Source of the DNA: Combretum micranthum
Taxonomy: Eukaryota; Streptophyta; Magnoliopsida; Myrtales; Combretaceae
Direction of reading: 5' to 3'
DNA length: 64,000 nt
Assembly: GCA_024138025.1 (NCBI GenBank)
Contig: JAMXBD010000369.1
Span: 434,001-498,000 of the forward strand
The stretch's first letter is position 1, and the number at the start of each line of letters is the position of its first letter. The notes under the pieces were generated by a model. That model worked only from the letters and a program-made list of their open reading frames with translations. It had not been told where the DNA came from and did not search any database. The position numbers and the translations under genes were made by a program. Positions 2,239 to 62,956 of this stretch are shown in pieces.

Positions 2239-2260
2239 ATCTCCCCCCTTTTTATGAGAA
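2239..2260 (-). other. Polypurine tract of the copia-like element
   Basis: The minus strand reads a purine run (AAAAAGGGGGGAG) ending two to three bases before TGTTAAACC, the start of the 3' LTR. This is the expected site of plus-strand priming and fixes the element's orientation. Confidence 0.7.
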
Positions 2261-3626: not shown

Positions 3627-3750
3627 ACTTCTATATCTTTATGAATATTAATATATTCTAAAGAAATATTTACCAATAATAAAATTATCACAATATAAAT
3701 TAAAATTGCAGAAACTATATAGATATAGAGTTAGAGAGAGATGCACAAGG

Positions 3751-11400: not shown

Positions 11401-11464
11401 GAGTATCGCTAGAATCATACATATTATATGAGCCTATGTATATCTTAAAAAATATTTTTCAAAC

Positions 11465-11495
<31 letters not shown>

Positions 11496-21817: not shown

Positions 21818-23080
21818 TAAGAAATTATCATAGTTTGACGCCGCAATCTCATGTATAGGAAAGGAAGTCACACAGCTCCACCACACATCACATATTAGTC
21901 CAATCATGCCCTATGACTTTGAGTTTTCTCCATAAAACCAAGGGGCAAAAGAGCAATAATGGCAAAGATCATCTTTGCTTTCTCAATTTGAAAAGTCTTT
22001 AGTTAAGCACAGTATTAGGCAAAATATCATAGGTTAAAAAATGCTTTGATTTTAATTTTTAGGTCGTAAGACTTTATTTACATGTATTATTGCATCTTAT
22101 TGATTAATACATATCATTGTCTTTTCACATCAATTATCAATCAATTTTAGTTATTTTAGTTGTTATAGGTATGAGTTTTTAAGTTGTGTTTCATTATTGT
22201 CTTATTGGATGAGGGGTTTACGGACTTCACATATGGTTTGGAGGAATTTTATAGAGTTTAACTATAGATCCATATATGAATCTTGCTTATCTAATGGCGA
22301 TCGTACTATTGTTATGTTGTATGTGACTAATCTGTAATTTTGATTTTTCAAACTTATTGAAGTTTCTCATGTGCTACAAGTGCACATTTGGCACCCATGC
22401 CTTCAGCCCAACAGTAATGGTGCATATGCTAAGTAGGCTTATTGTATAGCCATTATTTTTACATCCTATCTGTATTTATTTACCATCTGTTTGTTATCTA
22501 TATATAATTGCATCTAAACTAATCTACTTGATCTGTTGTGAATAAAATTATCTGTTTATCATCTATATCTAATTTCTGTCTAATTTGTTTATTTCCAGAC
22601 ACCTTATATTGAAAGAGCACCCAAGGGAATGTACCTTCCATGTAACACAATGGCCGGGTCAAATGTACATGTGTGGGCACCTATTTGCGAAACGACTTTT
22701 AAGGGAATAAACCCTCCCAGTTGCAGAGAATAACACTCACAAAATAGTGAAGTACCAACAAGCAATTAAAAAAATAATTTCTTTAAAAAAATGAAAAATT
22801 ATATTTTTTTTTTAACTTTCTATATACATTCTCACAATTCATGGTTACCGTCAGGTCATCTAGTGCCACCTTTACCTCCCTCGATCACTTAGAGCTATTA
22901 AAAACCATAACCAGTAGAGGTGAAAATTTTGACACACTTGATTATAACAAATGCAGGAGAAAAAGAAACAGGGACACAATTTTCCAATGAACAGTGGTCA
23001 CTAGCCATTACGGTGCAGAAGTCTCCATGTAAAAACCGCTGCAAGTTCGGCAATCACCTTTCCTATTATAGCATTTGATA
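21818..23080. other. Intergenic, no gene recognised
   Basis: AT-rich sequence downstream of the EBP1 gene. No ORF or repeat could be defined. Confidence 0.4.
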
Positions 23081-23089
23081 ACCCGGTTA

Positions 23090-23317
23090 CAAGAATGCAT
23101 GTGCCTTGTGAGACTCCCTGAAACTGATTTGGATCCCCCCCATCAGCATATATTATGCATTTGTGATTCCATAAAAATGAAAAGCAAACTGGAAAGGGAA
23201 TTGAAAGAGCCTTAACTCTGTAGGAATCTGAATCAAATCTAAATACTATATTAATATCAATTCACAATGCGCCACATACAATTCAGAACCAAAATTGAAC
23301 GTGAAGCAGCAAATATT
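23090..23317 (-). other. EBP1: EBP1 3' untranslated region (end approximate)
   Basis: Non-coding AT-rich sequence follows the stop at 23318-23320. I cannot fix the polyadenylation site, so the lower limit is an estimate. Confidence 0.4.
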
Positions 23318-25895
23318 TTACGATTCAGCACCATCCGCAGTGGCATCCATAGGCTCAGCTTCTCCTGACTCAGCCTTATCACCTTTCTTACCTGAGGACA
23401 TGCCAGAAATGTTAAGAGTTCATACTTTTTCAGGTGAATAGTTGCCATGCTAATAAAATGTATGAGAAATGTGACAGCATGTTTAGCAATTTTTGAGACA
23501 AGAAATCGGTGGAAACAATATTACAGGATCAATTTAAAATGATTTTTAGGCTTGTTATAGAAAGAACCCAAGAAAATTTTTTTTGGATTTGATTAAAGAG
23601 TGAACTCTAAGACCTCCCAAACGCTCAAGTTCTAGATTTTTTGGGAGACATATTGACTTGTCTTTTAATTCATTTTCTGCCATAAAACACAACTGCAAGA
23701 AGCAGCTGTGCATAACTGCTCTTTTCCCCATCTTAACTTCTAGTTTGGCACATAGAATAATCGTTTCCAACTTCCCTGTAAATAAAGACAGATCACCACA
23801 AACACAACTAACACAATGACACCGAGTCTGCACTAACTTTTACTACACCACTGCACATACACAATTACATACACAGCACAGACACATAACTGCACATTCA
23901 CAGATACAACACTGCATAACATCGCCGTAAACATGCTAGTTAACATTACTCTTCCCTTTGGAATTGTGTGTTACCTTACGCACAAAGTAAAATAACATCT
24001 AACTCAAAAATCATTCCTACTGTCACTGGCCACTTCATGTCTCATGGTCGCTGTTTCTGTAGTTGCTACAATCTGGTCTGACAACTGTTGCAGGAGTGCT
24101 TTAATTTGGATTCGATCTTCCTTGTACATCGACAAGGCAGCCTCAAATTGATATAGAAAACACGACTCTAGTACCAAATATTACAGAATAGATTAATAAT
24201 TAATTTTGAGTTTGTTACAGGGAGAACCCATTGATCTCTTTCACGGCTCAATTAACAAGAGAACCCACAATTTCTCAAACGCTCAGTTCTAGATTTTTTG
24301 GAGAAAATAGGCTTGCTTTTTCATTCATTTTCTATTATGAAATACAGTTACAAGAAGCAGGTGTTCACAACAATTCTTTTCCCTATTGTGAGGACAGAAA
24401 GCTTCACTAATATAAGGAGAGATTATCACATAATACAAGGAACACCACAGGACACTAACTCTACACTAAGTCCTACATCACTGCACATAATGTCCGGTGT
24501 CCCTCTACCTACACAAATAAATACACACTGCACATTCACAAATACACCACTACATGGCATCACTACACACATGCACTACTTAACAAACAGATAGAAGCTC
24601 AAAGAAGTATAAATTTCATTCAAAAGAAATCCTTATATATGGCCGGTTATATCAAAGAGAAATAAAATGTTTTTTCACAATGTTATCCTTGTTTTAATAT
24701 CTTAAACACCGTTATGCAGGGTGCTTTTGTAATTTTAGTCTCATTTTTATCCTCATCCATCAATCTCTCCAATTTTAGAGAAAAATAGACTTTAAATGTT
24801 TCCACCACTTCTCCTGCCCATCCATTGTCCTACCGAAACACACATTAATTGGTTTCTTACCTTTTTTCTTTTTGCCTCCACCTTTCTTCTTTGTCTTTAT
24901 GCCCAACGCCAACCATGCCTTGACTTCTGGATCATCCATTGCTTTTGTAGGTCGTAGCTCTTGCAAAGGATGAGATGTGACTCTATCAGATCCATTGGGC
25001 ATTAACAAAACCGTGAACTTGATATGAGCAACATAGTCGCCTGCAAATAACCAACTCATCGTGAAGATTACTTGTCCCCATTCTAGCAGGTGTGTCATGT
25101 AAACAGCAATTCAGTCCATCATACCAGGTTTCTCATGAAGTACAGGATAAGGTTGTAAGAGATCATGGTTGACACATTCAACCAATCCTAGCCGAGCCCT
25201 TTTCTCTTCCAATGCCCTGTACAGAAGGCATACACCATAGTACTCCCAATAAAACCCAAGAAAAAAAAAGCAAGGATACAAGCAATGGTAAGGAAATCAG
25301 GTGCCCTGTAGCATGCTCACCTTGCAGAAAAAGGCATTATAGGGAACTTTTGACTGATTTCACTGAAAATAAACCTGGATGCCTTCATTTTCAAGTGATA
25401 GTTCCTATCCACGGCCCTCTTGTATATGGTAGTCTGTTTTTCATCCAACAGCTTAGGCTGCAGTAGCAAACAAGTAAGATGAGATTAAGCTGAGAAGAGG
25501 CCCAAACAAAAGAATGACTGATGATACCTACCTTCCCATCACCAGTACTTGTGACAATATCCACTGCATAAACTTCATTCTCCTCAAATTCCACATCATC
25601 CACTCTAGTTTCAGGATTGGACACACTCAGGACAACCTTGTTACCGTCTATAACAAACTGCTTGAGTTGATGGCTAAGGACACCTTCAACGATTTTGCAG
25701 TCATAGGCTGCAGCAACTTTTTGAATTGCTTCTGTAACATCCTTATTCTGCAAAATAAAAAAATAAATAAAATGAGAATCAACTATGACAGCAACTAAAG
25801 TAAATAAGTAATAGGTAAATAAATGTAGACATTAAAAGTAATTGCAATAGACTTCTTCTCTCTTTTATTTATTTATTAATATACTATCTCTCTTT

Positions 25896-25926
<31 letters not shown>

Positions 25927-28458
25927 GGTTTGGGGATGGTGAATGGTTTAGAGAATGCACTCCTTCTCTCCCCCCCCCCCCCCCCCCCCCACACAAAAAC
26001 ACCCCCCACCAAAAACAAAAATTTGCACGAGATTTAAGCAATCCAGAAAAGGATGTGACAGGATGCAAAGATTAAAGAATAAGCAAGTTATAAAGCTTCA
26101 TTCAAAACTAAGCAAAGCACTATGCTCGAATTGAGGCAACTATAATCTTTCCATCTTATGCAATTAAAATGAATGACTTTGTATATTAAAGTTTGTTCTC
26201 CAGGACTGTTATTCTTTTATAGCAATAAGACATTACTAAGTATTTGTCAAAAAAACAAATAAACAAATAACATATACAAGTCTGTCTATATATCCATGAC
26301 GTAAACCATTAGACACTGAAAATCCCACCCACATTTTCAAAGGCACAAAAACCTTAGTTGCACTCTCATTCTCCTAGACAGTCCAACAGATATCATTTAT
26401 GAAATCAATAAATCTATAGACAAAATAATTAGTAATCAAAAGTCAGTAAAATTAAGTTCAATTTAGATCCATTTCTTCCACTAACTATTAAATTCTACTT
26501 TGAAAAAAAGAAAAAGAAAATAATTAAGGTCCAATTAGGTAATAATGCAGAGCTTGTTGGCCTACATGAAGTGTGAATCACTCTGTGGATTCCAATTGAT
26601 CTAAAACACCCCACATGGCCAATCACAATGTTGGCAACAGGGAAAAGAGGAAATCAAAGAAAGATACATCACCTCAGCAAAGTTGCACAACCCCCACCAC
26701 CCACCCACCCCCACAACCCACCCCACCCCCCCCCCACCCACCCCCCCCCCCAAAAAAAAACACCAAAGAAAGTAATTGCTAGTCAAAATGCAATAAGCTT
26801 TATGCTAAAAGTCATACACTACTGGAAGAGATGGAAAAAATTATAAATTTAATTCACCTAGGAAGCAACAATTTAAGTATTTCAGTTGTACAATATGAAT
26901 CTTTCCCTATCAGAGTAACTATGACAAAAAGCTTCATTTGGACATTAGTCCATAGCTGATCATAATGAATTCATCCTTTAGGGAAAGACAGTTCACATAA
27001 ACAGAAAAAAGGTAAAAACAAATAAAATTAGGGTCAGAAGAGCTTTCGTTATCTTGCAAACCATCTAGAGGCCAAGAGTGACAAAGGGATTATGTGGATC
27101 AATAAACTCAATACTGTAATAAAATGTACAAGTCAGCCACACAAATTCCTTATAATGTCTACAAGGGGGATAAAGAAAAAAGAGAGAGAAATTCACTGTT
27201 GCAGGGGTAAATGTGCAATGCATACAGAACTAACTCCTTGAAATACCTACCCCAAAAAACATAAAAATGCCATTATTATACCAAAAAATGATGGCAACCA
27301 ACTAGATCAATGAGCACCAGCTGCATACTCATCATGTAAATCAACTAATGGATCAAGCTAGTACAAACATACAACGAAGTTCGAGAATGTAAGAAACCAA
27401 CAGTAATATTATGCGTGCATGAAAAGAGGAAAGTTACCTTTTTCCCAGGCCTCACTAGTCTCAATGCAACTTCAGCGGCAGTATTTGCTGCAGCAATAAC
27501 ATCAGCTGCTCTACCAGTGACTGGTCCTGCTTGAAGGACGTGAGTGTGTGCAACAACAGCAATGAACCCATCTATATGGCACCCCATGTCACTACACACA
27601 CAAAGGAAGAGCAGTTAAACAATAATAAGTCTACAAGCTATTAAACCAAACATTCCCACAAGGACATATTGGCTCATATTAAACTTACATCTTCAACATG
27701 TCACCTTCTTCCAACACAGTTTCATCACCAGCCAGAGGAGAAAAATGACAGACTGTATTGTTGACTGAAATGCAAGTAGGGAAGGCAATGCCTCTCTCAA
27801 TCTTTTTTTTGATATTCTTATACATGTTACCTGTTTGCCTGCGGAAGTTTACAAGAAAAACCAATCACCTAGACGGATACTAAAAGAAGGAACTTAAACT
27901 ACCAAAATTTGGAAAAACTGTCCACGGGCGACCCAGTTTGAGTTCACGAGCTCTTCATGAAACTCACCCATAAACCACCCATTTCGAAATTCCTAAACCA
28001 GAACAAACCACAGCATATTTTAACCTATGTGACTAAAGCAGCATAAAACCGGTCCATACAAAATTTTCTTCAGAAAATTAAACTAACTTATATGAATTCA
28101 CACTAGATTCATTAAAAAAACAATTGAAACTTACTCCCTAATAAAAGAATCCCCTTTCTCGCAAATATCAACAATCTTAGCCTTTGGCTTGCACTCGGAT
28201 ATGACTAACTGCAGCGCCTCTGCATAACAATAATTAGAAAAAATATCATGCGATAAACAGAAAACCATTTTCTTCGGACTAATAGAATAAAACCCATTAA
28301 AGTAATTTATTGTGAATGACACAGGTAATACGTAGTAATTACAATGAAACAGAAAATAAAAACATACTATTGACAATCTCGGAGGCGTTTTTGTATTTGG
28401 TGACGACGTCGGACGAAGAAAGATCCAACTCCTTCTCTTCCTTTTCGTCGTCTGACAT
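23318..28458 (-). CDS. EBP1: EBP1 / PA2G4 (ErbB3-binding protein 1 homologue), complete, nine coding exons
   Basis: Coding exons on the minus strand: 28458-28368, 28219-28135, 27838-27689, 27591-27438, 25747-25532, 25457-25321, 25216-25125, 25040-24861, 23391-23318. They join in frame with GT-AG introns to 1179 nt (392 residues plus stop), the usual length of plant EBP1. The start is the ATG at 28458 ([13 protein letters not shown]). The protein has the methionine-aminopeptidase ('pita-bread') fold without peptidase activity. Recognisable segments are [77 protein letters not shown] and [18 protein letters not shown] basic [12 protein letters not shown] tract follows near residues 355-372, at the family's nucleolar/RNA-binding region, and the tail is acidic. 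Plant EBP1 is a dose-dependent growth regulator that acts in ribosome biogenesis and translation (known for Arabidopsis and potato). All exons look intact. Introns 5 and 8 are enlarged by low-complexity tracts and a TRIM. Confidence 0.96.
23519..24585 (-). mobile_element. TRIM (terminal-repeat retrotransposon in miniature) inside the last EBP1 intron
   Basis: Two direct repeats of about 427 and 407 bp (23519-23945 and 24179-24585) start TATTACAG and end TTAACA. They flank a 233-bp interior with no coding capacity. On the minus strand a purine tract (AAAGGGAAGAG) abuts the left LTR. A primer-site-like TTTGGTACTAGAGTCG (plus strand 24162-24177) abuts the right LTR and is a partial match to the usual TGGTATCAGAGC. 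The outer flanks AACAA and AACAG are a target duplication with one difference. The element therefore lies in the same orientation as EBP1, within its 1469-bp intron 8 (23392-24860). Confidence 0.8.
24162..24177 (-). other. Primer-binding-site-like sequence of the TRIM
   Basis: TTTGGTACTAGAGTCG on the minus strand directly follows the 5' LTR. It resembles the initiator-methionine tRNA complement but with transposed bases. Confidence 0.45.
25898..25990. repeat. T29 and C21 homopolymer tracts in EBP1 intron 5
   Basis: A run of about 29 T at 25898-25926 and a run of about 21 C at 25970-25990. On the transcribed (minus-sense) strand these read poly-G followed downstream by poly-A. Exact lengths are assembly-sensitive. 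Confidence 0.85.
26691..26760. repeat. C-rich/G-rich tract with G-quadruplex potential
   Basis: A run of CCC(C)-A units about 60 bp long, then A9. The EBP1-sense strand carries at least eight G3+ runs separated by one or two bases. Confidence 0.85.
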
Positions 28459-28650
28459 TGTGTGTTGTTGTGTAAAAGCTAGCTGAGGTTTTCAAAATTG
28501 ATGTTTCCTGCAATTCAGACAGAAGAAGATAAGAAAATTTGTGACATAACAGATGCAAATTTATGCTTGTGAATGATGATATGACCTGATGAAGCAAAAA
28601 GAGAGTGAGAGTGAGTGGGGCGGCTGATAGTTTCCGCACTGATTTTAGGG
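28459..28650 (-). other. EBP1: EBP1 5' untranslated leader, probably with a short intron
   Basis: Reading toward the ATG there is a pyrimidine-rich tract ending TTGCAG just before GAAACATC (about 28506). That is a good acceptor. A possible donor (CATCAG-GTCATATC) lies near 28585, which would give an intron of about 80 nt. A leader intron is plausible but not proven. Confidence 0.4.
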
Positions 28651-29514: not shown

Positions 29515-29773
29515 GGTTATCTAATAAGTATTTGAACTTTAAATTAATTAATTTAATATCTAAACTTTAAAATTGATCAATTTAGTGCCTAAAAAATTAT
29601 TTTTTGCACGTCAATAGTATCTCTGTATGTACTTGATTGATTAGTTTCAAAATTTTTTTTTTATATCAAATTGATCAATTTCAAAGTTCATATATTAAAT
29701 TAATCAATATCAAATTTTAGATACCTAATTGCATATTTTGTCAAAATTCATGCACTATTTGTGATATTATTCC
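29515..29773. mobile_element. MITE, family 2 (copy 1, left end eroded)
   Basis: Inverted-repeat arms carry the words 'aaattgatcaattt', 'ttaggtac' and 'ttgaactttaaa'. The right end 'gcactatttgtgatattattcc' matches the ends of the copies at 41439-41750 and 48170-48472. No ORF. Confidence 0.6.
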
Positions 29774-30092
29774 TATTTAAAATGGCTTGAAATATGACTT
29801 TAAAACATGAGTTTAGCTAATGGAAACAAAATTATGCATTAAAACTACAATTTTAAATTAAATTATACTTTCAACACACAATCTTATAGATTTTCCACAA
29901 GCAACTTGTTTCCAAAATCATTAAAATTTAGAATTAATATCATATTTCGTACCTGAATTTTATCAATTTGAACAATTAATTATATGAATTTTTTTTTGTT
30001 GATAAACTACCTAAATTTTAAAAGTGCCAATTTACTAGTTAAACTCTATCCACTTTAACTTTGACAAATTTTGTATTGAGCTACCTAAACTT

Positions 30093-30622
30093 TGTTATAG
30101 GGATCCAACAACTAAGATCTGATAGCAAGAAAAAAGTTTTCAAGAAAGATTCGAATAGGATGGTGGAGGAGGAATTAAGGTTAAGGAATATGATGAAGGA
30201 AGAAGAATTAGGGAAAGAAATGAAATGACATGGAAAAAAGAATCCGTAACCCTTATACGTGCAGATGGGCCGGAACAATTCAGTTGGACAGGCTGATGGG
30301 GTATGAATGGGCTTGAAGGAATAAATTAAAGAGTCATAATTAGTCAAAGTTCCTTTATTATAGATACTATAATTAGCATAAGTCAAATATATTAATTAAG
30401 GAGAATAAATTAGAAAGATTACATTCTATTTTTATGTATTACATATTAATATAAATTGTATGGTTCGGATACAATTTTAATAACAAGAAGAACAATTTCT
30501 ATATTATTCTCGCATTCGAGAAACCCTCATTGTATTCAGCTTGGACATAATTCATGTAATCTTCTTGCTGCATTCGGCTTAATTATTACAGAATATTGAT
30601 TTAATTTCACTTTTGTGTTGTA
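30093..30622 (+). repeat. 5' LTR of the gene-capturing element
   Basis: Begins TGTTATAGGG and ends with a degraded GTGTTGTA. It matches 33048-33578 end to end. Confidence 0.88.
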
Positions 30623-30624
30623 AT

Positions 30625-30636
30625 TGGTATTAGAGC
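30625..30636 (+). other. Primer-binding site (initiator-Met tRNA)
   Basis: TGGTATTAGAGC, two bases after the 5' LTR. The consensus is TGGTATCAGAGC. Confidence 0.8.
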
Positions 30637-30647
30637 TACAATCCACC

Positions 30648-30880
30648 ATGGCTGACATAGATTTGTATATTGAAGAGATGATTAACGTTGTTCATCGGGT
30701 CTTCAATGAGCATTGGGATGAACGAGATAGAAAATTAAAATCTATCATGGATGTATAGGATAGAAAATTAAAATCTACCGTTGAAGCCCTAACGAGAACC
30801 TAGCATCAACAGCGAGGAGAATCAATTGAGTTGTTACAGACTCAGTCGCAACCATAGGTGGTGATGACTGGAGTAAGCGA
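30648..30880 (+). pseudogene. Truncated gag start of the chromovirus
   Basis: The ATG at 30648 opens a charged, probably coiled-coil N-terminus (MADIDLYIEEM ... HWDERDRKLKS). A stop interrupts it at about 30757, and a tandem partial repeat of 'gatagaaaattaaaatct' follows. Gag-like starts of this kind follow the primer site in many plant chromoviruses. No capsid or zinc knuckle remains. Confidence 0.5.
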
Positions 30881-30899
30881 TGCTGCTATCGCTGATGTT

Positions 30900-31515
30900 G
30901 GTGTCAGAGCGGCGCCAAATCAATTTCCAGTACATTCTAGCCAAAAAGTTGTAGTGGAATCGCCAATCATTGAACATTCTCAACCTTATGCTGAAGACAA
31001 AATCACCCAAGGTATGCGTAATCACAAGCTAAGGTTTGTCGAAAGATGTCGCTATCAATTCCTTCATATTCAATGAACAATATAACAATTTCCTAAGGTA
31101 TGGTTACGCTGCTTATTCTAATGCTATTATAGGGAACAGGTATGTTGGTGATTTAGATGAATTGAAACAAAAAATTGTTGTTTTGGTGCATAGCATATCA
31201 CATCAGGAGCAAAGGAAATAAGTTAATAAAAAGGGTGAGGAGAAAAATGGGTTTGATACCAATGATAAATGTAGGGTTATTGTTGATAAGAGTACTTTTC
31301 ATGGTAAGGAAGAAAAGGCTATTTCATTCTACAATGATGGATCTAAATTTTTAACCACTAGTCATGATAAGAATATTAAGTATTGGGATACAAGAATTGG
31401 GAAAGTTGTATATACCTTTTCGGTACAAAAGATCCATTATGGTGAAAATAAACCTAGATGACAATAAACAAAACATATTATTAGTTGGTATGAGTGATAG
31501 GAAGATTGTGCTTGC
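30900..31515 (+). pseudogene. Captured fragments of pre-mRNA-processing factor 17 (PRP17/CDC40)
   Basis: The first part (about 30960-31215) reads GMRNHKLRFVE, then after a frameshift NSFIFNEQYNNFLRYGYAA and YVGDLDELKQK. This is the N-terminal conserved region of plant PRP17, a splicing-factor WD40 protein. It jumps through STFHGKEEKA directly to NDGSKFLTTSHDKNIKYWD and, in another frame, NKQNILLVGMSDRKIV, which are WD repeats that lie well apart from STFHGKEEK in the intact protein. The capture is therefore internally deleted as well as frameshifted and cannot be functional. No intron is visible within the matched parts. The assignment is from family motifs recognised by eye. Confidence 0.75.
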
Positions 31516-31524
31516 TTGCAAGGA

Positions 31525-31712
31525 TTTTGAAGAATAGATGAGAGGGATGTTATTGTTTGGAGTATGTTGCTAGCAAGTTTTGTGCATAATAGATTGCAGA
31601 GAGAGGCATTGGATCATTTAAGATGGATGATAGTAGAAGGAGTTTGTCCAAATTCGATTATTTGGACTACCATCTATTCATGCTATGATTGGGATACTAA
31701 AGCGGCTAAACT
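31525..31712 (+). pseudogene. Captured PPR-protein fragment, piece 1
   Basis: The frame reads ERDVIVWSMLLASFVHN, REALDHLRWMIVEG and CPNSIIWTTIYSCY. This is the 35-residue helical hairpin pattern of plant pentatricopeptide-repeat proteins (organelle RNA-binding factors). It covers about one and a half motifs and is bounded by stops. Confidence 0.7.
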
Positions 31713-31744
31713 AGACAAGTAGATTTTTGCATATGTGCTTAAAT

Positions 31745-32180
31745 ACCAAGGTTGGGGACAACTGTTGGAGCAAGGAACTCACAAGAGTCATTAGTGGCTC
31801 TACCTTCCGAAGCAAACTAATGGTACTATTTCCTATACTTGGGTGATTGCAAAGTGTGATGTTGTCAAACCTTAAGTTGTAGCGACAAAACACATATCTC
31901 AGATCAATGAAGAAGCTTGTTGTCCATTTGTTAAAAATTACAAAACAATCATACATCCAAGAGAGGTGAACAAGATCCGAGGATTTGATTGGTATCCTAA
32001 TATTGTAACCACACACACAAACAGTCCTAATGTTCTCATTTGGGACCTTGAATCTCAACTCAACCATCGTGTAATTTGTGGAGCAAGCAATTCACATCCG
32101 GATCTGCTCTTGATAGGACACCAAGAAAATGCAGAATTTGCTCTTGCAATGTGTTTATTAGAACCTTTTGTACCTTATGA
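31745..32180 (+). pseudogene. Captured fragment of MSI4/FVE (WD40 histone-binding protein)
   Basis: The translation reads LLEQGTHKSH, LYLPKQTNGT, VIAKCDVVKP, then HISQINEEACCPFVKNYKTI, IHPREVNKIR, NSPNVLIWDLESQ and GHQENAEFALAMCLLEPFV. In the same order these match the central WD40 region of plant MSI4/FVE, an RbAp46/48-type subunit of histone-deacetylase and Polycomb complexes that affects flowering. The stretch carries in-frame stops in its first half. The second half (from 31966) is open and runs into the second PPR piece. It is neither a full domain nor a functional gene. Confidence 0.75.
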
Positions 32181-32254
32181 GGTTACTATGATTAAGATGT
32201 TTTCTGCAAGTGCTCAATTGGAGGATTTAGACCTCAGAAGGAAATTATCACTTA

Positions 32255-32695
32255 ACCACCAACGACTTGACAAAATGCACCACAGAAACATCGTCCTGTG
32301 GACCACTCTAATAGCTGGATATTTCAGTTTAAGGGTTTACGACACTAGGTGGAGTGCTTTAAGGAACATGATGAGATGTGGGTTTGAATTGGATGTGTTT
32401 AAATTCATTATGGAGCCTCATATGATGTTTTGGAATGCATTGATGAGTGGCTTCACACAAAGAGGTGATTGGGAAAGTGCCTTGTGGTTGTTAGGTTGTA
32501 GGGAGAAGGAAGGTCTTAAGCTTGATGATCATACGTCTGTCCCTTTATTGACGTTGCTTGATGAACCTAAGCTATACAAAGTGATAGCGAGTTCGTGGTG
32601 CAATTGTAAATCGCTTTATGATGTTGGAGAATACTGTCTGCAATACTATCATCACTTCATACTCCGAATGTGGTTCTACTAGAGAATGCTTCGAG
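32255..32695 (+). pseudogene. Captured PPR-protein fragment, piece 2
   Basis: MHHRNIVLWTTLIAGYFSLR, MMRCGFELDVF, MMFWNALMSGFTQRGDWESA, REKEGLKLDDHTSV and, after a shift, VCNTIITSYSECGSTRE are successive PPR motifs. The first part is fused in frame to the MSI4 piece, giving a 238-codon open frame (31966-32682). Piece 1 and piece 2 may come from one gene, with the MSI4 piece lying between them. Confidence 0.7.
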
Positions 32696-32739
32696 TATCA
32701 CACTTTGATGATTTCTATTGGTTCATTGGTTATTAGTTT

Positions 32740-33045
32740 GACTTATTTTGGTGCACAAGGAGCTCATTCTAAAAACACCTTTCACGTTTCTCAACTTAAG
32801 AAGTACTACGGATCTAGATCTAAGACATCATCCATGATTCCTATCCACATGCGTGAAGATAACGAGTTAATACCAGAAAAAATATTAGAAAGAAAGATGG
32901 TCAAGAAATGAAGAAAGACAACAACAGAAGTACTTATCTCATGGCATGGATGACCTCCATCCGATGAACTTGGGAATCCTTCCAAGAAATGAAGCTACAG
33001 TACCCGGATCATCCCTTGTGGCCAAAGGTTTTTGACGAAGAAGGG
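32740..33045 (+). pseudogene. Integrase C-terminus/chromodomain remnant
   Basis: FHVSQLKKYYGSRSK, PEKILERKMVKK, TTTEVLISWHG, and in a shifted frame WESFQEMKLQYPDHPLWPKV, then FDEEGNV. This is the typical tail of plant Ty3/gypsy chromovirus polyproteins, whose chromodomain targets integration to chromatin. One stop and at least one frameshift break it. It sits immediately before the 3' LTR, as in intact elements. Confidence 0.8.
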
Positions 33046-33047
33046 AA

Positions 33048-33578
33048 TGTTATAAGGGTCTAGTAGCTAAGATCTAACAGCAAGGAAGAAGTTTTTAAAA
33101 AGGATTTGAATAGGATGGTGAAGGAGGAATTAGTGTTGAGGAATAGGATGGAGGAAGAAGAATTAGGGAAAGAAATGAAATGACATGGAAAGAAGAATCC
33201 GTAACCCTTGTATGCACAATGTGCTGGAACAATTCGGTTGGACAGGTTGATGGGCTATGAATGAGCTTGAAGGAATAAATTAAAGAGTCTAGATATTAGT
33301 CAAAGTTCCTTTAATATAGATACTATAATTAGCATAAGTCAAATATATTAATTAAGGAGAATAAATTAGAAAGATTACATTATATTTTTATGTGTTACAT
33401 ATTAATATAAATTGTATGGTTCGGATACAATTTCAATAACAAGAAGAACAATTTCTATATTGTTCTCGCATTCGAGAAATCCTGGCCGTATTCAGCTTTG
33501 ACATAATTCTTGTAATCTTCTTGCTGCATTCGACATGATTATTACATAATATTGATTTAATTTCGCTTTCGTGTTACA
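33048..33578 (+). repeat. 3' LTR of the gene-capturing element
   Basis: Begins TGTTATAAGGG, ends GTGTTACA, and is followed by AACTT. Confidence 0.88.
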
Positions 33579-33723
33579 AACTTTATCGTTTTTTCAATTA
33601 ACTACGTTATTTGGATATTACAAATGAACTTAAAAAGTTTATAGGTAATAAATTGACTTTTTTAAATTTCAGTCAGTTAATTACATAATTTCATAAAATT
33701 CATGTACCTGATGTGACACGTAG

Positions 33724-34237: not shown

Positions 34238-37200
34238 TGTCACGCCCCGAGGGTACCCTAAACGTGGCAGTCCACCATACATAATACTAAAGCCTATGAA
34301 TGACTACCTCAGTCACGCAAAGACTTCATATCATGTACAAGGCGTACATCACAACCAAGGGAACGCATTGGAGTAGCGTAATTTATATTGATAATAAATA
34401 AGTAACAAGAAAAGAGAATACTTATGATAAAACATAAACATATTAAATTATAATTCTTAGGGGCATATCCCTCTATTGTCTTCAAATAAATATACATCTT
34501 AGAATCAACATAGCATTAATTATATAAGTCATTACATATAAAGAACCTTACAAAATTACTTCATCTTATGTTTCCATTTTCTTCATAGAAGCTTAACATC
34601 CCTCATGACTTCCTTAACGTCATAATCCTCAATTTAAGCCACAGGTATACCTGTTTCAGCAAAATCTATAGGAGTATAAGCTATAACTAGCTTAGTGAGA
34701 TATTCCTTTTCATTCGCACCATATTTCCAAATAAGTTCATTTAGATTTCCACACATATGCTATGCATACAATGCAACAATCACGTGATTACACAATTATA
34801 TATATAGTTATCTGGAAACCATATATAGAACGGATTTACCTCTCCATATCGAAGGTTAGGGAATCGGTAATGAAGATCCTCGATCTTCTACTGCTAGTCC
34901 CCAAGTCCTCACCCAAAGCGTTCGGTTGGCTTGGCTTCGAATCTAAAGTTGTATTCCTCGGGCGATTTGGATTCTCTAGGAAGGAGCATGGCCCGTGTCA
35001 CAGTACGATAACAGCCAATCCAACTCTATGCGTAGCGTAGGAGTAGCAGCCTTCCGAAAAAGATGTGACTCAATGTATGCTACGCGTGAGTGTTTTATTT
35101 TTCTTAAACCAAACCTTATTAAGGTTTATTAGGAGGCGATCAATCAATTTAGCAAATAATAAACAGTCATACAAGTAAGTAAATAAAAACACTTAAACAG
35201 GCAGTTTTAAAGTTGCGATATTCTTAATTCTCATTTCACGCATAAATAAAGAATCACATATATACATATCCCCGAATTCTCATACATATCCATTTTTTAT
35301 CTTTTCCTAGTATACTAATGTCACAACTTTACAAGCACAAACAAGGTAACGAAATTAAGAGGAATGACTCACTCGTCCATTTCACGATCTTCTTAATTGT
35401 AGTAATCTTCGGGTAGGGTATTCTCGTATCCTTCGTTACCTAAACAAAAAAAAATACCCGGGATGAGTATTTCATAGAAATTCTACTTAAACTTTCTAAT
35501 TCTATTTCACTATGTTCGTCAAATTCGTATAGAATGAAATTCCAATTTACAATGGCCATAACTTGCTCATTTTAACTGAGAATTTCGCATATAATATACC
35601 GTTTTCTACTTATTCGAAAAGATCTATCCATTTCTAAGGTTATCTTTGTCATATAAGGTCATTTGGGTTCCAAAAATGTTGGGTACAGATTTAAAACAAA
35701 TATTTCTAAACTTTTACAAATCCATTTTCTAACTCAACTTCATTCAAAAATCCTTTAGTAAAAAAAAAAAAATATATATATAATATATATGTACATATAA
35801 TTGATAAATCCTTTGAGTATAATCTCACTTTTTATATGCAAAATTCTTAATGGTAGTATCTCAACAATTTATTTCATACAACAATTCATTTTGAGTTGTT
35901 AAAACTTTAACTTTGACAATTTCTTTTCAAGTCTTTTGAAGAAACTTTATATTTTCATAGGTTATTATAAAGAGTATATTCATATTTTATATTCTTCATT
36001 CTTTTTTAAAAAACAAGTAAATTTTATTTTAACCTTAGTCTTGTATAAATTTTACTTCTAGTGATAAAAGATCAAATTTATCAAAAGTGTATTAAGTTGT
36101 TGAAAACCATGTTATGAATTTGTATTTAGAATGGTTTTAGAAATTGAGTCTTGTCTTCTTATATTTATTATTTAGAATATAAGTTTTTATTTTCTAAAAC
36201 TTGTTCTTTTATTTCCTTTGAAAAGATTACTCTCTATTGATAAAATCCTTTGTTTTTAATCTTATCTTATTCATATTCTTTGAAAATAAGTTTTCTTCTT
36301 CAGAAACTTGAAAATCATTATTTTCCTAAATGGGTTTATAATTTTATGGGTTGATTTTTATCTTAACTTTGAAACTAGTTTGTTTCTTGGTTTTGTTATG
36401 GAGTAGAGTTTAATCTTTAAGCTTTTTGCAAGATCTTTGAAAACTAACAAATTATTTTACTAAAACTTTAGTTCCTATAATATACAACGAATGCATTTAT
36501 TTCTTATGTTTCCTTGGTAAAACTATTTTTGTTATTTAAGAAAACTTTTAAAAAACTTATATTACTCTATTTCTATGTTGTTTAATAATAACTCCATTAT
36601 TTTGTGACAAGTCACATAATAGAAAATCTAGTTTGTAAGTTCCTTTAGTAAAATTCTACTTTTAAATTAGTTGAGACAATATCATTATGTAGATGCAAGT
36701 ATTATGAGCATGTAAAATAATAAGAATATAAGAAAATACTAGAAACAAATAATAATAAATAAGATAATAAAATATCAAGTATTGGGAACCTTAGCTTCAT
36801 CAAGGTATCCGGGTCAAGTATTGGGAGCCTTAGCTTCATCAAGGTATCCCGGGACTAAGAATAGACTAGTCCCAAAAGAATAAAGAAAATAAATAAAGGG
36901 TTGTTTTGACTTGATATGGACAAGTCTAGGACTATAAAGACTAGTCTTAATAATAGCATGAAATAAATAAATAAATAAATTACAAAGCATAAAATTAAAT
37001 AAATAATAAGTGAGCTTATATGCTCTAAAGATTATATATAAATACATAAATATATTTAGTTAGATATGAATAATAAAATCAACATAATAAAATAGGAAGT
37101 TCATGTGCAAGAATAAAACATGAATATGTTGTTGCTTTTACTACTCATATAAGTTTCAAAACAATACCATAGTCATGTTAAGTTACATGACATGGGTAAA

Positions 37201-38603
37201 TAAATGGTTAGAAGAACTTTACCTAAAGTGTTTATGTGGTATGAAGATGGTAGATGAAATGGGTATTATGTGAGTAGTGATATGTGGTAGAAAGTTTGTG
37301 TATAAGGAATGATTTTTTGTAAAGAATTGGTTTAAGAGAGTTTTGGTAGAGAGAACTCTTGAAGAGAGGATTTGTGGAGAGATTTTGAGAGAGTTTTGGT
37401 AGTGAAATGAATTGTGTGAAAGAATGAAGGATGAAGGGGTATTTATAAATTTTGGAGTGAAAATTAGATATAATTAAATTAATTGAAAAAGAAAATAAAT
37501 GGGAAGGGAGGAGAGAGAGTGGTGGATGCAATGGGGAGAAGGAGAGAGAAAATTTGATTAAAAATTAATTTTAGAAGAAAAGTGTAAGAGAAGTTTGATA
37601 ATATGTGGTGTAGAATTTTTATGGGAAAAGAAAATTGAAAGAAATAGGTATGTAGGTGTAAGAATAGGTAGTAAAAAAAAGTAGAGATAGAGGAATAATA
37701 ATGAATAGTAGAAAAGTACTATGAATAGTAAACTAGACAATTAAAGTACCGGTAGTAATAAAAATACACGTAATAATACGATATCTGTAATTTTTAGCTA
37801 CAAAAAAAAATCCAAAAACTGATATTTTTGAAAACCTTGTATTTTTATGAGCCTATTGGTATTAACGGAATATTTTTTCCATCCGGTGTACCAGGGCACA
37901 GTTTTTGAAAACTGATCCCGTTTGGATCCGAAAGACACTAGAAATTTGCGAATTTGATATTTTTAAGCTTCCCTATATTATTATGAACTATTATCAACAA
38001 TTATTTTCATTTCGTAGTTTAGGGTTTAAGAGCGTGGGATTGCCGAATCTTAAACATTAGGGTTTATTATAAGCTTTGTTGACTTTTAGGGTTCCGGTTT
38101 GACTTCCGGTTTTGTTGAGTTATTCGTAAGATTATATAATCTTGGAGTTGTGACCGTTTTATATTTTTAGCTCGATATCTATGGTTTATCTTATTTTATT
38201 TGTGGTTATTTAATAGTCTTTAGTTCTCGGGATCGTTTAACCGAGTCTAGGGTTATGAGTTGACTCAGTTTGACTTTTGGTGAAAATTGAAATTTCCGAT
38301 TCTAAAATTCACCGAAGGATTTAAGATCTTAGTATTTCGTTGTTGAGCGTTATTTGGATATACTGTCTTGATTTGCATGTTTAGGAATCAGATAAGTGAT
38401 TTGATTGATATACGGATGTTGATTCAACCGATAGTTGGATTTTCTATTTTGTTTTTAGGGTTCTCTTTTTCTCAGATTAAGAAATCGTTTTCGATTTTAT
38501 TTAGAATTAAGTTTTAACTTGGTTTGATATTTCAGGGTTTTGATTCCGATGTTTGACTCTTAGGATTATTTTTTAAGAATTATGAAATTTTTAGGGGTTT
38601 ACA
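34238..38603 (-). mobile_element. Solo LTR, 4.4 kb (copy B, inverted relative to copy A)
   Basis: The window strand starts TGTCACGCCCCGAGGGTACC and ends GGGGTTTACA. Flanking pentamers ACAAT (34233-34237) and ATAAT (38604-38608) differ by one base. Read on the minus strand it is collinear with 8407-13011 in landmarks: the start TGTAAACCC, a CCGGTA-containing block, a TATA box near 37440, CT-rich sequence, the CTCACTAAGC-like region, and GGCAGTCC near the end. No coding interior. Confidence 0.8.
36776..36846. repeat. 35-bp tandem duplication in solo LTR B
   Basis: The phrase 'caagtattggg(a/g)(a/g)cc' plus 'ttagcttcatcaaggtatcc' occurs twice in succession. Copy A has a single version near 10160-10200. 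Confidence 0.75.
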
Positions 38604-41438
38604 ATAATTACATCAACTCTTACATCGCTTCATCTCCATGAACCAAAATGTATCTTTTATAAGGCTTGAGGAGTTTGAATACGAGTGGTAGAACTTTTCT
38701 TAGCAGTGTGTCTTGTATGCATATACTTATGTGTGCTTAAGTAGATTATAATAGGCATAATAAGTCATTTAAAGGGTAGGTGATCTCCAATTTGCAAATG
38801 TGTATGTTTGCAACTCTACTCTTGATGCTACATGAGCCCTCCATGTTAAATTGTAAGGTTTTTTTCTTTTTCTTTTTTTGTTAATTTTGATGAGATAAAA
38901 CTAGATTTATATTAATAATTATATTTTACTTTTAATATATCATCTTAAAATATGCATTTGAAGTTCAATTAAATGGATATTGTTTCTCTAGTTAAGTTTA
39001 CTTAATGTTTTGATTAGAAAAGAACATAACAAATCTTTTCTTTTTTAATATATACATATATATACATTGTAACTATTAGGGCAAAAGGGAATTGAACCTG
39101 ACCATAACAAATTCAAGAAATCAAGTCAATTCATTTGGGCTTCAAAAAATAATTAAACTTGATTATTATCTTTTTTTCTCCCTCATTAAAGAGTCTAGAA
39201 TGTCTTAAAATAGGTAAACCTTTGAGCTTTCCTTGAAGTAATTTTAGTATTCATAGAATGATTTAGAGCTGTTGTAGCAAAATTTTTTTTTCAAGAGCAT
39301 GGGTGCTTCAAGATAAAAGAAATATTCCAAAACATGTGAAGTTCCAAACCTTTCTTGACTTAAAGTACTAATTGGTGCAAGAAAGCCAAAAAGGTTTGAA
39401 GCACTCAAAAAATGTCCAAACTTTTTTTAAAATTTCTAGCTTTTATTGTACAATTTTTACAAAATCATGAGGTAATCACTTACCAAACCATTATTATCTT
39501 ATCAATTGTTATATATACACAATCAAGAGCTTTTTGGAGCCAATCCTCATAGTTATAGTTTCAATATTATATCTTGTAGTCACCTCCTTTATTTAATTTG
39601 TCATCTTATTCATTATTTGCAGATTATTAGAGTAAAAGAAAGCGTAGTGCTAAGTGGAAACTTTTGTTTGCAATCTTTTGTAAAGCATTGCACCTATAAT
39701 TGCCAAATTTGTTGTGAGTAATAATAGAGCAAGCAAAACCTTATTAGGGGGCATAGTGTGATCATAGAGAGCATAAGCAATTCAAACCCCGCGTTAGTAA
39801 GCTTGATATTCAAAGCTCTTCTTTTTAGTTTATGATTCTTTATGTATTGATTTATTCATTTACTTAATCATTTAATTGTTACTTTATGTTAAGAACCATC
39901 GACTTACACTAAATTGTGATTAAACCCATTCCATCATTTTCATGAGTTCCTAGATTTATATTTCACCTCGTAAGGCTATGGTAGTCATAAATCCCAGTGT
40001 CTAACATTTATGTGGCTTATTGAAGTTACATCCTTCACTATAGCTCCTAAAAAATGACAAATCATTATCTACCTTTAGCACCTCTAAAAGGATCTCATTA
40101 AGTGGCTTTTGAGAAAGTCCATGAATGAAATCAACATTGCATTCAATGGTATATATGTTATATGATTATAAAAAATCATTAAAGAAAAGATATGGACGAA
40201 CAATTTCACTATATACTTAACATATAACTCAACACATAGCATTAATGCAACCAATTTATCTGTATTGAATAATCATCATTCGATGCCTTAGGGGGTAGTC
40301 TACGTATGTACCATCTATCAAGCTAATGAGTGACTCAAACTAAATGAGGTAGTTACAATATCCACTTATAGGGCCAACCATGTGACATGGGTAGCCAACC
40401 ATTCGACCTCTATCTAGCCCAACATATTCATTTTGTGTAACTACCTCTTTGTGTCATTATAGGTAAATGTGCATTAGAGGCCATCAAACTAATGGGTACA
40501 TGAATTAGAGAACATAACTTTACAATACATAAGCAAATCAATGGCATCCATATTAATCTATCTCTTAGCTAACATGAAAATATGTAGGAAGGTTAGCAAT
40601 ATCATCCCTTGCATATAGACGCCAAACAATGTAACAGCTTAAAAGTTCAAGTATGTAAACTTCCATAACTATAAGAAAACAAATGAAATTGTTGAGCTAA
40701 AACTTTCCTGTAAACTTGACAATTTATTATAACATAATTTTGTGTAGTCTCCTGGCTCGAGTGATAAGCTAAACACGTCCTTTAGCTAAGATGATCCTAA
40801 AAATGCAATTAAATACCTAAACTTTAAATTAGTGAATCTAACGTCTAATGGAACTTAACGTTGTTATTTATTTCTTTTTCCTTAATATTATTACAACATT
40901 GTAATTGGTTTAATTTTATTCATAAGTATTGTAGGTGATGAGTTGCTAATAGATGGAGTGTTAGAGCATGCTGGACTTGCACACATAAAACATGGTTAAT
41001 GGTGGTTATCTGGCATGACTACTTTAATGCTTAAGTTATCTTGTGGGCTCAAAAGAGTAAGATGAGATGCGATACTATGAGATGAGGTAGATAAGATAAG
41101 AATCATATTGTCTTTGGTCATACCTTAAGTGGAGGCCCATAAGAGCTGGTGGACGGCAGATGAGGATTTTAAGATCCTCATCTAACCGAGACCCCTATAG
41201 AGCTTAATCACAAGGCTGAGGTACTCGTATAGATGAGGTCTTTGTGGGCTTAAGGCTTTTGTGGAGCTTCTTGGCTCAAGCACTTGTGAGACTCTTCATA
41301 GGCCTATCAGCTTATTAGGTTGATGTTGGGCCTGCTAAGCTATAGTCAAATACTCCCTATCCATGAGAATGTATACTTTAATTGTTTTATTATTACTATT
41401 ATTAGTATTATAACTACAACTAATATTATTTTATTTAG
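38604..41438. other. Intergenic, no gene recognised
   Basis: About 2.8 kb without a supportable gene. A 71-codon frame at 39506-39721 has no recognisable domain. Around 40795-40860 there is a short piece of MITE-like text ('caattaaatacctaaacttt'). At 41158-41183 an imperfect palindrome built on GATGAGGAT is present. Confidence 0.4.
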
Positions 41439-41750
41439 GGTTAATGTCATGAATGGCATCTAAACTTTAACAAAATATATTATTAAGTACTTGAACTTTG
41501 AAATTATTTAATTTAATACTTGATCTTTGAAATTGATCGATTTAGTATTTGAAAGAACTTTTCATGCATAGTTATAATACCTTTGTCAAGCTTTTTGAGG
41601 TACCAAATTGATCAATTTAAAAATTTTTAGGTACTAAATTGATTAATTTTAAAATCCAGGTACTTAATTGATCATTTTTAAAGCTTAGGTACCTAACTGC
41701 ATACTTTGCAAAAGTTCATGCACCATTCATGACATTATCCATTTATTTAT
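41439..41750. mobile_element. MITE, family 2 (copy 2, both ends present)
   Basis: The left end GGTTAATGTCATGAATGG and the reverse complement of the right end GGATAATGTCATGAATGG are near-identical terminal inverted repeats. The arms carry 'aaattgatcaattt' and 'taggtac' words. About 312 bp, non-coding. Confidence 0.75.
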
Positions 41751-47827: not shown

Positions 47828-48169
47828 TGATATTATAAATGTTGTCAGATCCAACCAAGTGATTAACCGAAGCATATGGGAGAGTTAAGTGTCAAAAGGT
47901 ATATTCGAGTTCAACCTGGATCAATAAAAAATATAAAGATAATTCACATATTAGTTTTTTCAAATATAAAAAAATATGTAATTACATTAAAGTATAATTT
48001 CAAATAAATTGAAACTTAAGTATTTATTTAAATTAAACAATATGCTTATAATTATACATATTATTACCTATATAATTTATAATACTTATGTAATTTAGAG
48101 GGCATCATGATGATTAAGGATATATTATGTTTCAAATTAAATTTCAATGAAGTTTTTAGTTTTATATAG
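47828..48169. other. Intergenic, no gene recognised
   Basis: AT-rich spacer between LTR D and a MITE. Confidence 0.4.
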
Positions 48170-48472
48170 AGTTAATGTCACAAATGGACCCTAAACTACG
48201 ACAAAATATGCAATTAAATACATAAACTCTACAATTGATCGATTTAATACCTGAACTTTAAAATTGATCAATTTAGTACAAGAAAAAACTTTTTTTGTAC
48301 GCTAACAGTACATCTGTCTAGTTCTTTTAGGTACTAAATTGATCAATTTCAAAATTTTTCAAATCCTAAATTGGTCAACTTAAAAATTTAGGTACTAAAT
48401 TGATCAATTTTAAAGTTCAAGTACCTAATTACATATTTTGCCCAAGTTTAGGTATTATTTATAACATTATCA
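48170..48472. mobile_element. MITE, family 2 (copy 3)
   Basis: Left end GTTAATGTCACAAATGG and reversed right end GTGATAATGTTATAAAT, with arms like the copies at 29515-29773 and 41439-41750. Non-coding. Confidence 0.7.
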
Positions 48473-51071
48473 CTTTTATATATTACCTTAGTTTCTAAAT
48501 ACACTATAAAAATATTTTACTTGTTAATAGTTGCAAATTGTGAATATTATCTTCTATATTGTAAAAAAAAAAAAGCTTATTTGTTATGAATACTATATGT
48601 CATTATCAATTTTTTCATTTTATATTTAATTTAATTTTCTTGATTTTTAGCTATAATTTTTGCTTATTATTGATTTTTTTTACCTTGGAATTGTATTTAG
48701 ATTTTATTGCTATTGTATCAAGTTAAGGATTATGATTGTGCATAAGTTCACATTTTCTTACTGCATTATTATTTTATAGCATAAAAATCTTAAAATGGTT
48801 ATTTCATATCAATAATCCATCTATTATTCGAAGCATTCTTCTAAAGTTAGATAAATTAAGTTAAATGATATATTAAAGTACCTCACTGAAGTACTTCACT
48901 AAAGTATTAATCCATCTCCTCTCTCTTCCTATTTTATATAAGAAGCATGAACTCCATGGTTTTAGGTTTTATTTTTACAAAACAACTACACTCTACCCTT
49001 AAACAATGATGCCACTTGAAACTACTCTATACCTACTTCATATCTATTACAACTAAGAACCATTAAACATTAAGATCTCATTTAAAATCCCCCACAAAGT
49101 GAACCTCTTGAATTGTCCAGAAAAAAAAAAAATTTTAAGTGTAAAAAATAGTTTAACACATCCACTTTAAGTTGCTACCATTTGCTTATCAGGCATTTAT
49201 AGCCCCAACAACCACCACTAGTATAATCTAAGGGTGGAGTGCAACTTAAATGAACTGTTGCTATCTCTAAATAGCATATAAATTAATGATTTTACTTGTT
49301 GTAATTTGTCCAATTTATACATGCTTTTATTGGCTAGAAAGATTTGTTCAACATTCATAAAGAAAAGAATTGCTCATAATAAAATGAGGTGATAAATACT
49401 AACATCTTTCAACCATAAGATAAGCAAAAGTAGATTGGGGACTTGTCGCATTTTGACCTATGGAATCGGCCAAGCTGGTTTGAGTTTGATAGTAGTAATT
49501 ATTATGACTCAAAACTTGGTAATATTAGCTTAATAATACAACTCAAGGGTTGCCTCACTTACTCATCACATAATTGCTTTATAGTTTCGAAACTTTACTA
49601 ATGACCTTATATAGCTACCAAAGTTATCATATTTTTGCTACAATGCTACTAAAGTTATCATATTTTTTATAGTTATCTACAATATTAAGGATGCACCAGC
49701 ATTATGACTAACCCTTTCGCCATGGACTTTTTCTTATTCTCTATTATAGCCTTTTATGCCACCATAATTGTTGGAAAGTAAACAAAAAATATCCGTACAA
49801 CCCTTGTTCATATGAATGTGTCAGAATTGTAATAACTATATGTAGGAATCCTTAAACTTTGTCCAATAATGCAAATGTTAACGAGACGATATGATTTTCA
49901 CCACCTATGTATAATGTTATCATCAGCTTGTGCTTATTTTCCTAGATAAAAAAGTACTATTAATGGTGATTGGTAGCTTAAAATAAGGGAAATGTTATTT
50001 TATTTATACGTTTAAGAAGTAGTGAGTTCAATCACATAATAAAATCTTAACATTATACATGCCATGTAAAATGCTTTAATGATGGTCCAAAAGGCCCAAT
50101 AAGTATATAAAAGATGACAACCCTTATAGTTGGTTTGTAAACATTTCTAGTTTATCATTATACTCCAATTAGTCTCTTTTATAACAATGAATAGGTGTAG
50201 GATAACAACAATGAAACATCCCATGAGCCATATAGTTACTCAATGGGTTTATGCTTCGTTTCATAGACTCTCTTCATTAGAATAGTATACCCAAAATACT
50301 TGCAAATGGATATTTGGATTTCCACCATCAATCAAGGAATTTCATGCTTCCACTATCTAAAAGTCTAATTAGGGGTGGTCCTTATGATAATAGCATTCTC
50401 TCATGTGTATGGATTATCAAACTAAGTATCTAAGGACATCGACCCTACTTCTTCAAACATACACGAAGTGTGATACGTCTTATATGCTAGATTTTCTTCT
50501 TTGAGTCACGCATAACATAGTTATTTTAGTTCAATGCATGACGCAACGTCATAGCTATATTAAGTTTTCCTTTTTCTCAAACTGCATACCTACTATAAAT
50601 TCATCAACAAATGAAGTTAGTCTTTCTTGAATGATGTCCTCTATGGACATTTGTTGTGACATATGGGATGGGTTCTAAACTTCCAACAACATTTGCATCT
50701 ATTAAAAACCCATAGTGCTAATTTTTCTTCCCACGTGGTTCTTCAAGATTCTAAAACCATCATAACTTTCTCCACTGCACTCACCTTAATCTTTGAAGGC
50801 ACTAAAAGAGATACTTTGACCTTACGTACTACGTTCAAATTGACTTTGATTGGAAAAATTATACATGGTTTAGGAAGATTATGACTACCCATTGCTTCTT
50901 GAATCATAGGAACTTAGGATGCGTGATTAGATTTTAATCTTAAGTTATTCTTAGATATAGACAAATTAATTTCATGTATTTTTAAAAAAAAAAAACTAAA
51001 ATGCAAGGATAAAATCCTCCCTTATGTAAATGTCAATGCTTGCTTCATGTCATCATCATCACTGATGGATA
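48473..51071. other. Intergenic, no gene recognised
   Basis: 2.6 kb without a supportable gene or element boundary. A 73-codon frame at 50663-50884 has no recognisable domain. Confidence 0.4.
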
Positions 51072-61008: not shown

Positions 61009-61654
61009 TGATATGAATCTAGCCATGCTTCGATTTGTTCCACGTTCAACATGAATAAATATGAATATTTCTAATTCAATAACCCTCAACCGGTGTTGCG
61101 AACCCTAGGAATAACAACCCCAAGACCTAACAAAGAAAGGAAAACCTTGACCCATTGTTTAAACAAAACATGAATCTTAGTAAAATTAGAAAGACGCCAC
61201 AATCAAATGAGGATGAATTTGATTGATAAGTCTAATTAAATAAGAACGCCACGAATTATCAATCCGATAAGTTCAACAAGTTCTCATAGGAACTCATAGG
61301 AGAAAATTCTCATAAAAAGAACTAATATCCAAGCCTATTTGAGACATAACAAATATAACTACTTATAAAGACCTAGGAAACTCAAAAGACCTAAAAAACA
61401 AAAGGTCATTATGACATAAAAAGATAAGATGGCAGCATAAATAACAAAGTTGGCGACCATTAATTGAAATAAATATACGAAATAAATGAAGTTGTCAAAG
61501 TTGCTCCTAGGTCGGCAGCCTACTCTTCAAAGCCGATGGTGTTGGCTTGTAGGCTGGCGTCTTATAGTCCAGCTTTGATCCAATTTACCCATAACGCTTC
61601 TATTTTGCTCCTGTTCATCCTAATTGACTCTTGTTCCTTCTCATTTTCACATCA
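61009..61654 (-). repeat. 3' LTR of the deleted gypsy element
   Basis: Collinear with 62957-63614, including shared phrases CGAACCCTAGGAATA, 'ctaggaaactcaaaagacct' and CCTAATTGACTCTTGTTCC. Confidence 0.82.
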
Positions 61655-62955: not shown

Positions 62956-62956
62956 C

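Follow-up and report, generated by a model that had tools for sequence, protein, structure and literature searches.

How does a retrotransposon come to carry pieces of host genes in the place of its own pol region? The question is raised by an element at positions 30093-33578 of a stretch of 64,000 nucleotides from Combretum micranthum (positions 434,001 to 498,000 of contig JAMXBD010000369.1, assembly GCA_024138025.1), which in the following is called the window. A first-pass annotation described the element as a long terminal repeat (LTR) retrotransposon with captured fragments of three host genes. Our analysis indicates that it is very probably a non-autonomous LTR retrotransposon of the Ty3 type in which the pol region has been replaced by pieces of host mRNAs. 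The basis for this reading is the observed structure, the matching host genes, the removal of introns from the FVE piece, one 10-bp junction, the independent insertions and the other gene layouts.

The element is a complete LTR retrotransposon with two LTRs, a target site duplication (TSD), a primer binding site (PBS) and a purine tract (Table 1; L and C numbers denote loci and contigs of the genome). The matching LTRs, the duplication AACTT and the primer site had all been pointed out in the first-pass annotation, and all are present. The PBS, TTGGTATTAGAGC, starts at 30624 and is what we take to be a match to the initiator tRNA-Met; in the sister copies L002/L003 it reads TTGGTATCAGAGC. The two LTRs differ by a Kimura two-parameter (K2P) distance of 0.101 over 527 sites, which at a rate of 1.3e-8 per site per year, a rate that may not fit the host plant, amounts to about 4 million years. 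All four host gene fragments lie in sense orientation between the gag-like start and the pol tail. The gag-like start gave no convincing Pfam match; DNA related to it occurs in L010, L015, L016, L019 and L031. Protease, reverse transcriptase, RNase H and integrase core gave no Pfam match with the interior pieces, each read in one frame, and the element is predicted to be non-autonomous. A chromodomain tail had also been claimed, and the name non-autonomous transducing chromovirus given. The pol tail is there, and the non-autonomous nature, the gene capture and the later movement are upheld, but the chromodomain is a sub-threshold Pfam match, which leaves the word chromovirus without firm support. 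Membership of the Ty3/gypsy chromoviruses is plausible, and integrase tails of the SH3_Tf2-1 type are strong in the relatives L032, L033 and L035 (Pfam 7e-12 to 3e-19).

Table 1. Features of the element and of its target site; positions are those of the window.
Feature	Position	Strand	Remarks
Left TSD, AACTT	30088..30092	.	same as 33579-33583
5' LTR	30093..30622	+	530 bp, TG...TA
PBS, TTGGTATTAGAGC	30624..30636	+	directly after 5' LTR
Gag-like start (MADIDLYIEE...)	30649..30945	+	degenerate
PRP17/CDC40 fragment	30963..31511	+	three blocks; matches the PRP17 gene of the genome, L009
PPR-A fragment	31502..31742	+	82% to PPR gene in L012/L013
MSI4/FVE fragment	31752..32172	+	140 codons aligned without gaps to FVE
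Piece X	32177..32240	+	also upstream of PPR-B in elements L010, L017, L018, L021
PPR-B fragment	32241..32685	+	81-82% to PPR gene in L011
Pol tail, integrase end	32741..33047	+	SH3_Tf2-1-like E 0.013, Chromo-like E 0.009, both below cut-off
Polypurine tract, GAAGAAGGGAA	33037..33047	+	directly before 3' LTR
3' LTR	33048..33578	+	531 bp, TG...CA
Right TSD, AACTT	33579..33583	.	

Genes matching all four fragments are found elsewhere in the genome, in agreement with the first description of an LTR element with host gene pieces. The PRP17 gene, L009 on contig C60, is a single open frame of 621 codons, and three blocks of the element (30963-31216, 31224-31313 and 31317-31511) match it at 80-84%; within the fragment there are two deletions, and the frame shifts near 31440. 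In the PDB the second-frame piece, unjoined, has Prp17 as its top match (E 0.0075), and with the frames joined 111 PDB sequences pass 1e-6. Among the 60 of these 111 that were listed, the lowest overall E-values go to repetitive WD40 proteins, and only six have one stretch that passes alone: five are Prp17 or Pre-mRNA-processing factor 17 and the sixth, 8ro0_W, is named merely WD-repeat protein. The N-terminal piece has no Prp17 match in the PDB, although the PRP17 gene of this genome does match it. The identity proposed for the PRP17 fragment is borne out by the PDB and by L009; its match begins at 30963, earlier than the extent assigned to gag had implied.

The pentatricopeptide sequences turned out to be two. 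Pfam PPR_2 matches the window pieces at 4.6e-4 and 1e-10, and in an NCBIfam scan PPR alone was matched. A single PPR donor for both pieces is ruled out, since they match two different PPR genes, and the captured genes number four and not three with one PPR. The gene matching PPR-B has an intact frame of 702 codons; about 158 bp are missing from within the fragment, near 32389-32401.

The MSI4/FVE piece is the one which informs on the route of capture. All 18 of its PDB matches are RBBP4, RBBP7 or CAF1 (best E 3e-4); with a shorter query a designed repeat protein (Tako8) outranks RBBP7, and Pfam assigns the window piece to no family. A protein search of the genome with FVE gave ten matches (38 of 38 candidates scored), eight of them in copies of the element (window, L002, L003, L004, L014 and L016) and two weak ones in C791 and C1381. 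The Arabidopsis FVE sequence matches C791 (L036) at 88-100% across three exons, which identifies L036 as the FVE gene, and matches the window over 140 codons at 62% without a gap; MSI1, used as a comparison query, gave no match. The exons of L036 are at 395-458, 649-735 and 849-911, with two introns between them that have GT and AG ends. GT also follows the third exon, and the start of this third intron corresponds to 31965|31966 of the window; L036 was analyzed over 2001 bases and the next exon lies beyond that stretch. The window and the three joined exons are identical at 149 of 214 bases with no gaps, and the exon joins fall at 31815|31816 and 31902|31903, at the intron sites of L036. Since two introns have been removed exactly, the FVE fragment came by way of spliced RNA. 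The identity first proposed for this piece is upheld. A comparison of exon junctions with located donor genes had been suggested earlier: all four fragments have a matching gene, and two FVE introns are absent from the element.

The intron loss bears on the alternative that a DNA transposon, whether Pack-MULE or Helitron, first put the pieces together, or that they first formed a chimeric retrogene, and that the assembly was then inserted into an LTR element. DNA transposons do carry many plant gene fragments, and 1194 Helitron captures are given for maize (PMC2774510). Pack-MULE or Pack-TYPE elements and Helitrons resemble the present element in carrying and shuffling gene fragments, but they are DNA transposons, whereas an intron-free FVE piece inside an LTR unit fits capture of RNA. 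Exact removal of the two FVE introns that are spanned is not predicted by DNA capture, while it is compatible with a retrogene. When the window region and the interior were searched for repeats, no long terminal inverted repeats were seen to enclose the captured block, and different subsets of genes sit in different LTR elements. We consider the alternative highly improbable; DNA-transposon capture was set aside on the exact intron loss and the lack of long inverted repeats, Helitron ends not having been searched for.

The joins between the pieces give a hint of how they came together. The PRP17 and PPR-A fragments overlap by 10 bp, AAGATTGTGC, a stretch common to the PRP17 gene L009 and the PPR-A gene L012 at their join. 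When PRP17 and L012 were joined at random 1,000,000 times, runs of at least 10 bases in common occurred at a frequency of 1.8e-5, and runs of at least 3 bases at 0.058. LTR-mediated retroposition has been described as involving template switching guided by microsimilarity, possibly repeated (PMC5408686), and the 10-base stretch fits the pattern which such switching would predict.

If the chimera has moved since it was formed, the same order of genes should be found elsewhere. The interior was used as a query against the genome (1.86 Gb, 5442 contigs), as had been proposed with the first-pass annotation, and sister copies with the same gene order were found. Of 161 candidates 40 were scored and the counts are therefore lower bounds: at least 45 matches, with the full four-gene interior at no fewer than three further contig places at 87-89%, and an extra four-gene copy in L014 which is split by an insertion. 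L002 and L003, whose flanks agree, go back to a single insertion that was duplicated; their flanking pentamers, GGAGA and AAAGA, are not identical. There are thus at least four independent four-gene insertions (window, L004, L014 and L002/L003), and three have perfect and distinct TSDs: AACTT in the window, TCATT in L004 and CTCTC in L014, where the first LTR base is missing or changed. The same four-gene order at independent sites, three of them with their own perfect TSD, shows that the chimera has transposed after capture, as the first annotation had it.

The alternative that the copies are segmental duplications of one insertion draws on real cases, since L002/L003, L018/L022 and L021/L024/L025/L026 are such duplicates and L002/L003 have no identical TSD. 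It does not account for the different perfect TSDs in the window, L004 and L014, and the LTR divergence of the copies is near their divergence from one another; the chance that it applies is next to negligible. The LTR divergence is 0.074-0.101 for the window, L002, L003 and L004 and 0.090 for L014, and independent copies among the first four differ by 0.103-0.116 in the interior. A burst of transposition soon after the chimera formed would be expected to give such similar values. The LTR of the window has 37 matches in the genome (36 of 36 candidates scored), and 20 of them, including its own two, span 507-531 bp with an identity of at least 86%; with this number of near-full-length matches the family looks low-copy.

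The window element is one member of a group of related gene-carrying elements. Among 34 contigs with a match to the interior 30 were examined, leaving out C1057, C3445, C1330 and C7, which match the pol tail only. Among the matches listed, 17 of the 30 have an element with a captured piece assignable to a layout; when duplicates are merged these become 11 independent insertions, ten of which carry two or more host genes. At least six host genes (PRP17, PPR-A, PPR-B, FVE, MDHAR and NLR) occur in at least six layouts. Besides the four-gene type there is PRP17-PPR-A-FVE in L016, where FVE is longer and the LTR a different one, and gag-PRP17-PPR-A split by insertions (L015 with L030, duplicated as L031 and counted as one insertion), which is possibly a remnant of the four-gene type. 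The others are X-PPR-B-MDHAR-NLR (L018/L022 and L023), X-PPR-B-NLR (L021/L024/L025/L026), X-PPR-B-pol tail (L017) and X-PPR-B joined to the FVE end (L010). The MDHAR piece matches rice and pearl-millet chains in the PDB (best E 1.7e-33), the millet entry being named monodehydroascorbate reductase and the rice entry by its locus, and the NLR piece matches Pfam NB-ARC at 1.3e-5 and 3.2e-5. Further perfect TSDs are CCATA (L010), GAGGA (L017), AACCC (L018/L022, with the first LTR base changed) and CAACT (L024/L026); none was established for L016, L023 and L015/L031. The remaining 13 contigs comprise four with donor-type genes, four with pol tails that have no captured pieces (L032-L035), three with partial PPR-B pieces (L027, L028 and L029) and one with a PRP17 piece (L020), these last four having no detected LTR pair, and L019.

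Some of these relatives deserve mention in their own right. In L018 (4346-5957), and also in L022 and L023, fragments of MDHAR and NLR follow PPR-B and make a chimera of three host genes. In L010 (2830-4690) a long PPR-B fragment is fused directly to the C-terminal half of FVE; both genes are also in the window, but as other pieces and in another order. In L019 (4710-5164) the same gag start is accompanied by part of a further PPR protein (Pfam PPR_2 4.1e-6).

The layouts suggest how the two halves of the window element met. Its 5' part (gag-PRP17-PPR-A-FVE) matches L016, in which FVE extends past the end of FVE in the window, and its 3' part (X-PPR-B-pol tail) matches L017. With breakpoints shared in this way, the element looks like a recombinant of two chimeric elements with the join at 32176/32177. 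Its LTR is 89% identical to that of L034 over the whole length, and relatives with pol tails or gag-pol matches have the same LTR at 89-90%; L034 itself has gag and RNase H (7e-31), and its match to the integrase core falls below the threshold. The match to the LTR of L017 covers 66 bases only, and to the LTRs of L010, L016, L018 and L024 there is no match at E 1e-3. A scan of the FVE-PPR frame against viral contigs gave no relative.

The sequence of events most likely ran as follows. Host mRNAs would be packaged together with the RNA of the element, and the reverse transcriptase would jump between templates at short matching stretches, from gag to PRP17, to PPR-A and to FVE. The 3' half would have been added afterwards, through another switch or by recombination with a second chimera (X-PPR-B-pol tail), if the order is as we suppose. 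With enzymes supplied in trans by gag-pol relatives, the completed chimera may then have spread to four sites or more. More generally, we consider it likely that the related LTR elements make up an RNA-level system for exon shuffling, with repeated capture of spliced mRNA from at least six genes, exchange by template switching across different LTRs, and lineage-specific mosaics as the result.

Several points weigh against these proposals. The mRNA route is evident for FVE only; for the other three genes we infer it, as PRP17 and both PPR genes appear intronless in this genome and so do not inform on the route. The PRP17, PPR-A and PPR-B fragments are 16-20% off the gene copies found and FVE is 30% off, so the true donors may be other or older paralogues. 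In L013, the other copy of the PPR-A gene, one base of the 10-bp stretch at PRP17|PPR-A is different. Only 3 bases are common to both sides at FVE|X, and about 6 at the joins inside PRP17, which taken alone is weak; shared stretches were read at these joins and at PRP17|PPR-A. Finally, the gag-pol relatives are candidate rather than established partners.

Has selection maintained the interior as a functional hybrid gene, as proposed for Bs1 of maize? Read in one frame, 31063-32680 is interrupted by 9 stops, whereas 1000 shuffles had 34 on average and never fewer than 17. Its longest open run is 268 codons, while no shuffle went beyond 154, and several module joins keep the reading frame. An open hybrid frame is accounted for by the captured exons. 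When the window is compared with L002, the differences at the three codon positions are 10, 12, 6 for PRP17, 10, 14, 11 for FVE and 16, 15, 17 for X-PPR-B, with no third-position excess; PPR-A (6, 6, 10) leans to third positions. The best frame of the FVE-PPR-B part contains 5 stops in L002, 10 in L003 and 11 in each of L004 and L006, and one in L016, of which 301 bases of this part were compared. With broken frames in the sisters and little codon-position bias against L002 there is no sign of selection on the 268-codon frame. A functional hybrid protein was rejected on these grounds, and selection for a hybrid gene is quite improbable; the captured fragments are most likely passengers.

Bs1 is the closest precedent. 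The review which describes this LTR element, with its segments from three host genes, also describes abnormal template switching in plants (PMC13317346, 2026); Bs1 is cited elsewhere as a multi-gene case (PMC8764390, PMC7264820). The likeness consists in an LTR element with several host gene segments and a hybrid reading frame (PMC13317346), whereas here there are four genes, and other ones, relatives in six layouts and nothing that points to selection on the frame. In maize 425 LTR elements are known to contain fragments of host genes (PMC2774510), and for rice and sorghum the captured genes number 672 and 1343 (PMC3726574). Veju and BARE-2 are described as recombinant elements formed during reverse transcription (PMC13317346), but there retroelement or unknown sequence is joined, while here the modules include host gene pieces. 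Among the open-licence PubMed Central papers listed, no title or opening of an abstract describes four host genes in one LTR element or a recombining group of gene-carrying LTR elements; subscription literature was outside this scope and may hold a report. Since host genes, intermediate layouts and apparent recombinants coexist in one genome, it can be tested here in what order the captures took place, what part short shared stretches played and how modules were exchanged between elements.

The window has further features outside the element. Positions 8438-12997 and 34251-38574 of the window are 68-77% identical in inverted orientation and flank a 21-kb segment which contains the element. A repeat of about 250-320 bp resembling a miniature inverted-repeat transposable element is present in both orientations (29535-29770, 41429-41750 and 48160-48483), the first copy just upstream of the LTR element. 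Direct repeats (84%) around a minus-strand CCHC zinc-knuckle frame at 61009-63616 are probably another LTR element, a broken hAT transposase (zf-BED and Dimer_Tnp_hAT matches) lies at 57337-59388, and a direct repeat of about 1 kb (79%) at 1225-3627. Gene-like exons on the minus strand at 23000-28500 match Peptidase_M24 at 0.00095, below the cut-off, and presumably belong to a gene resembling EBP1/PA2G4; the LTR element is located upstream of the likely 5' end of this gene.

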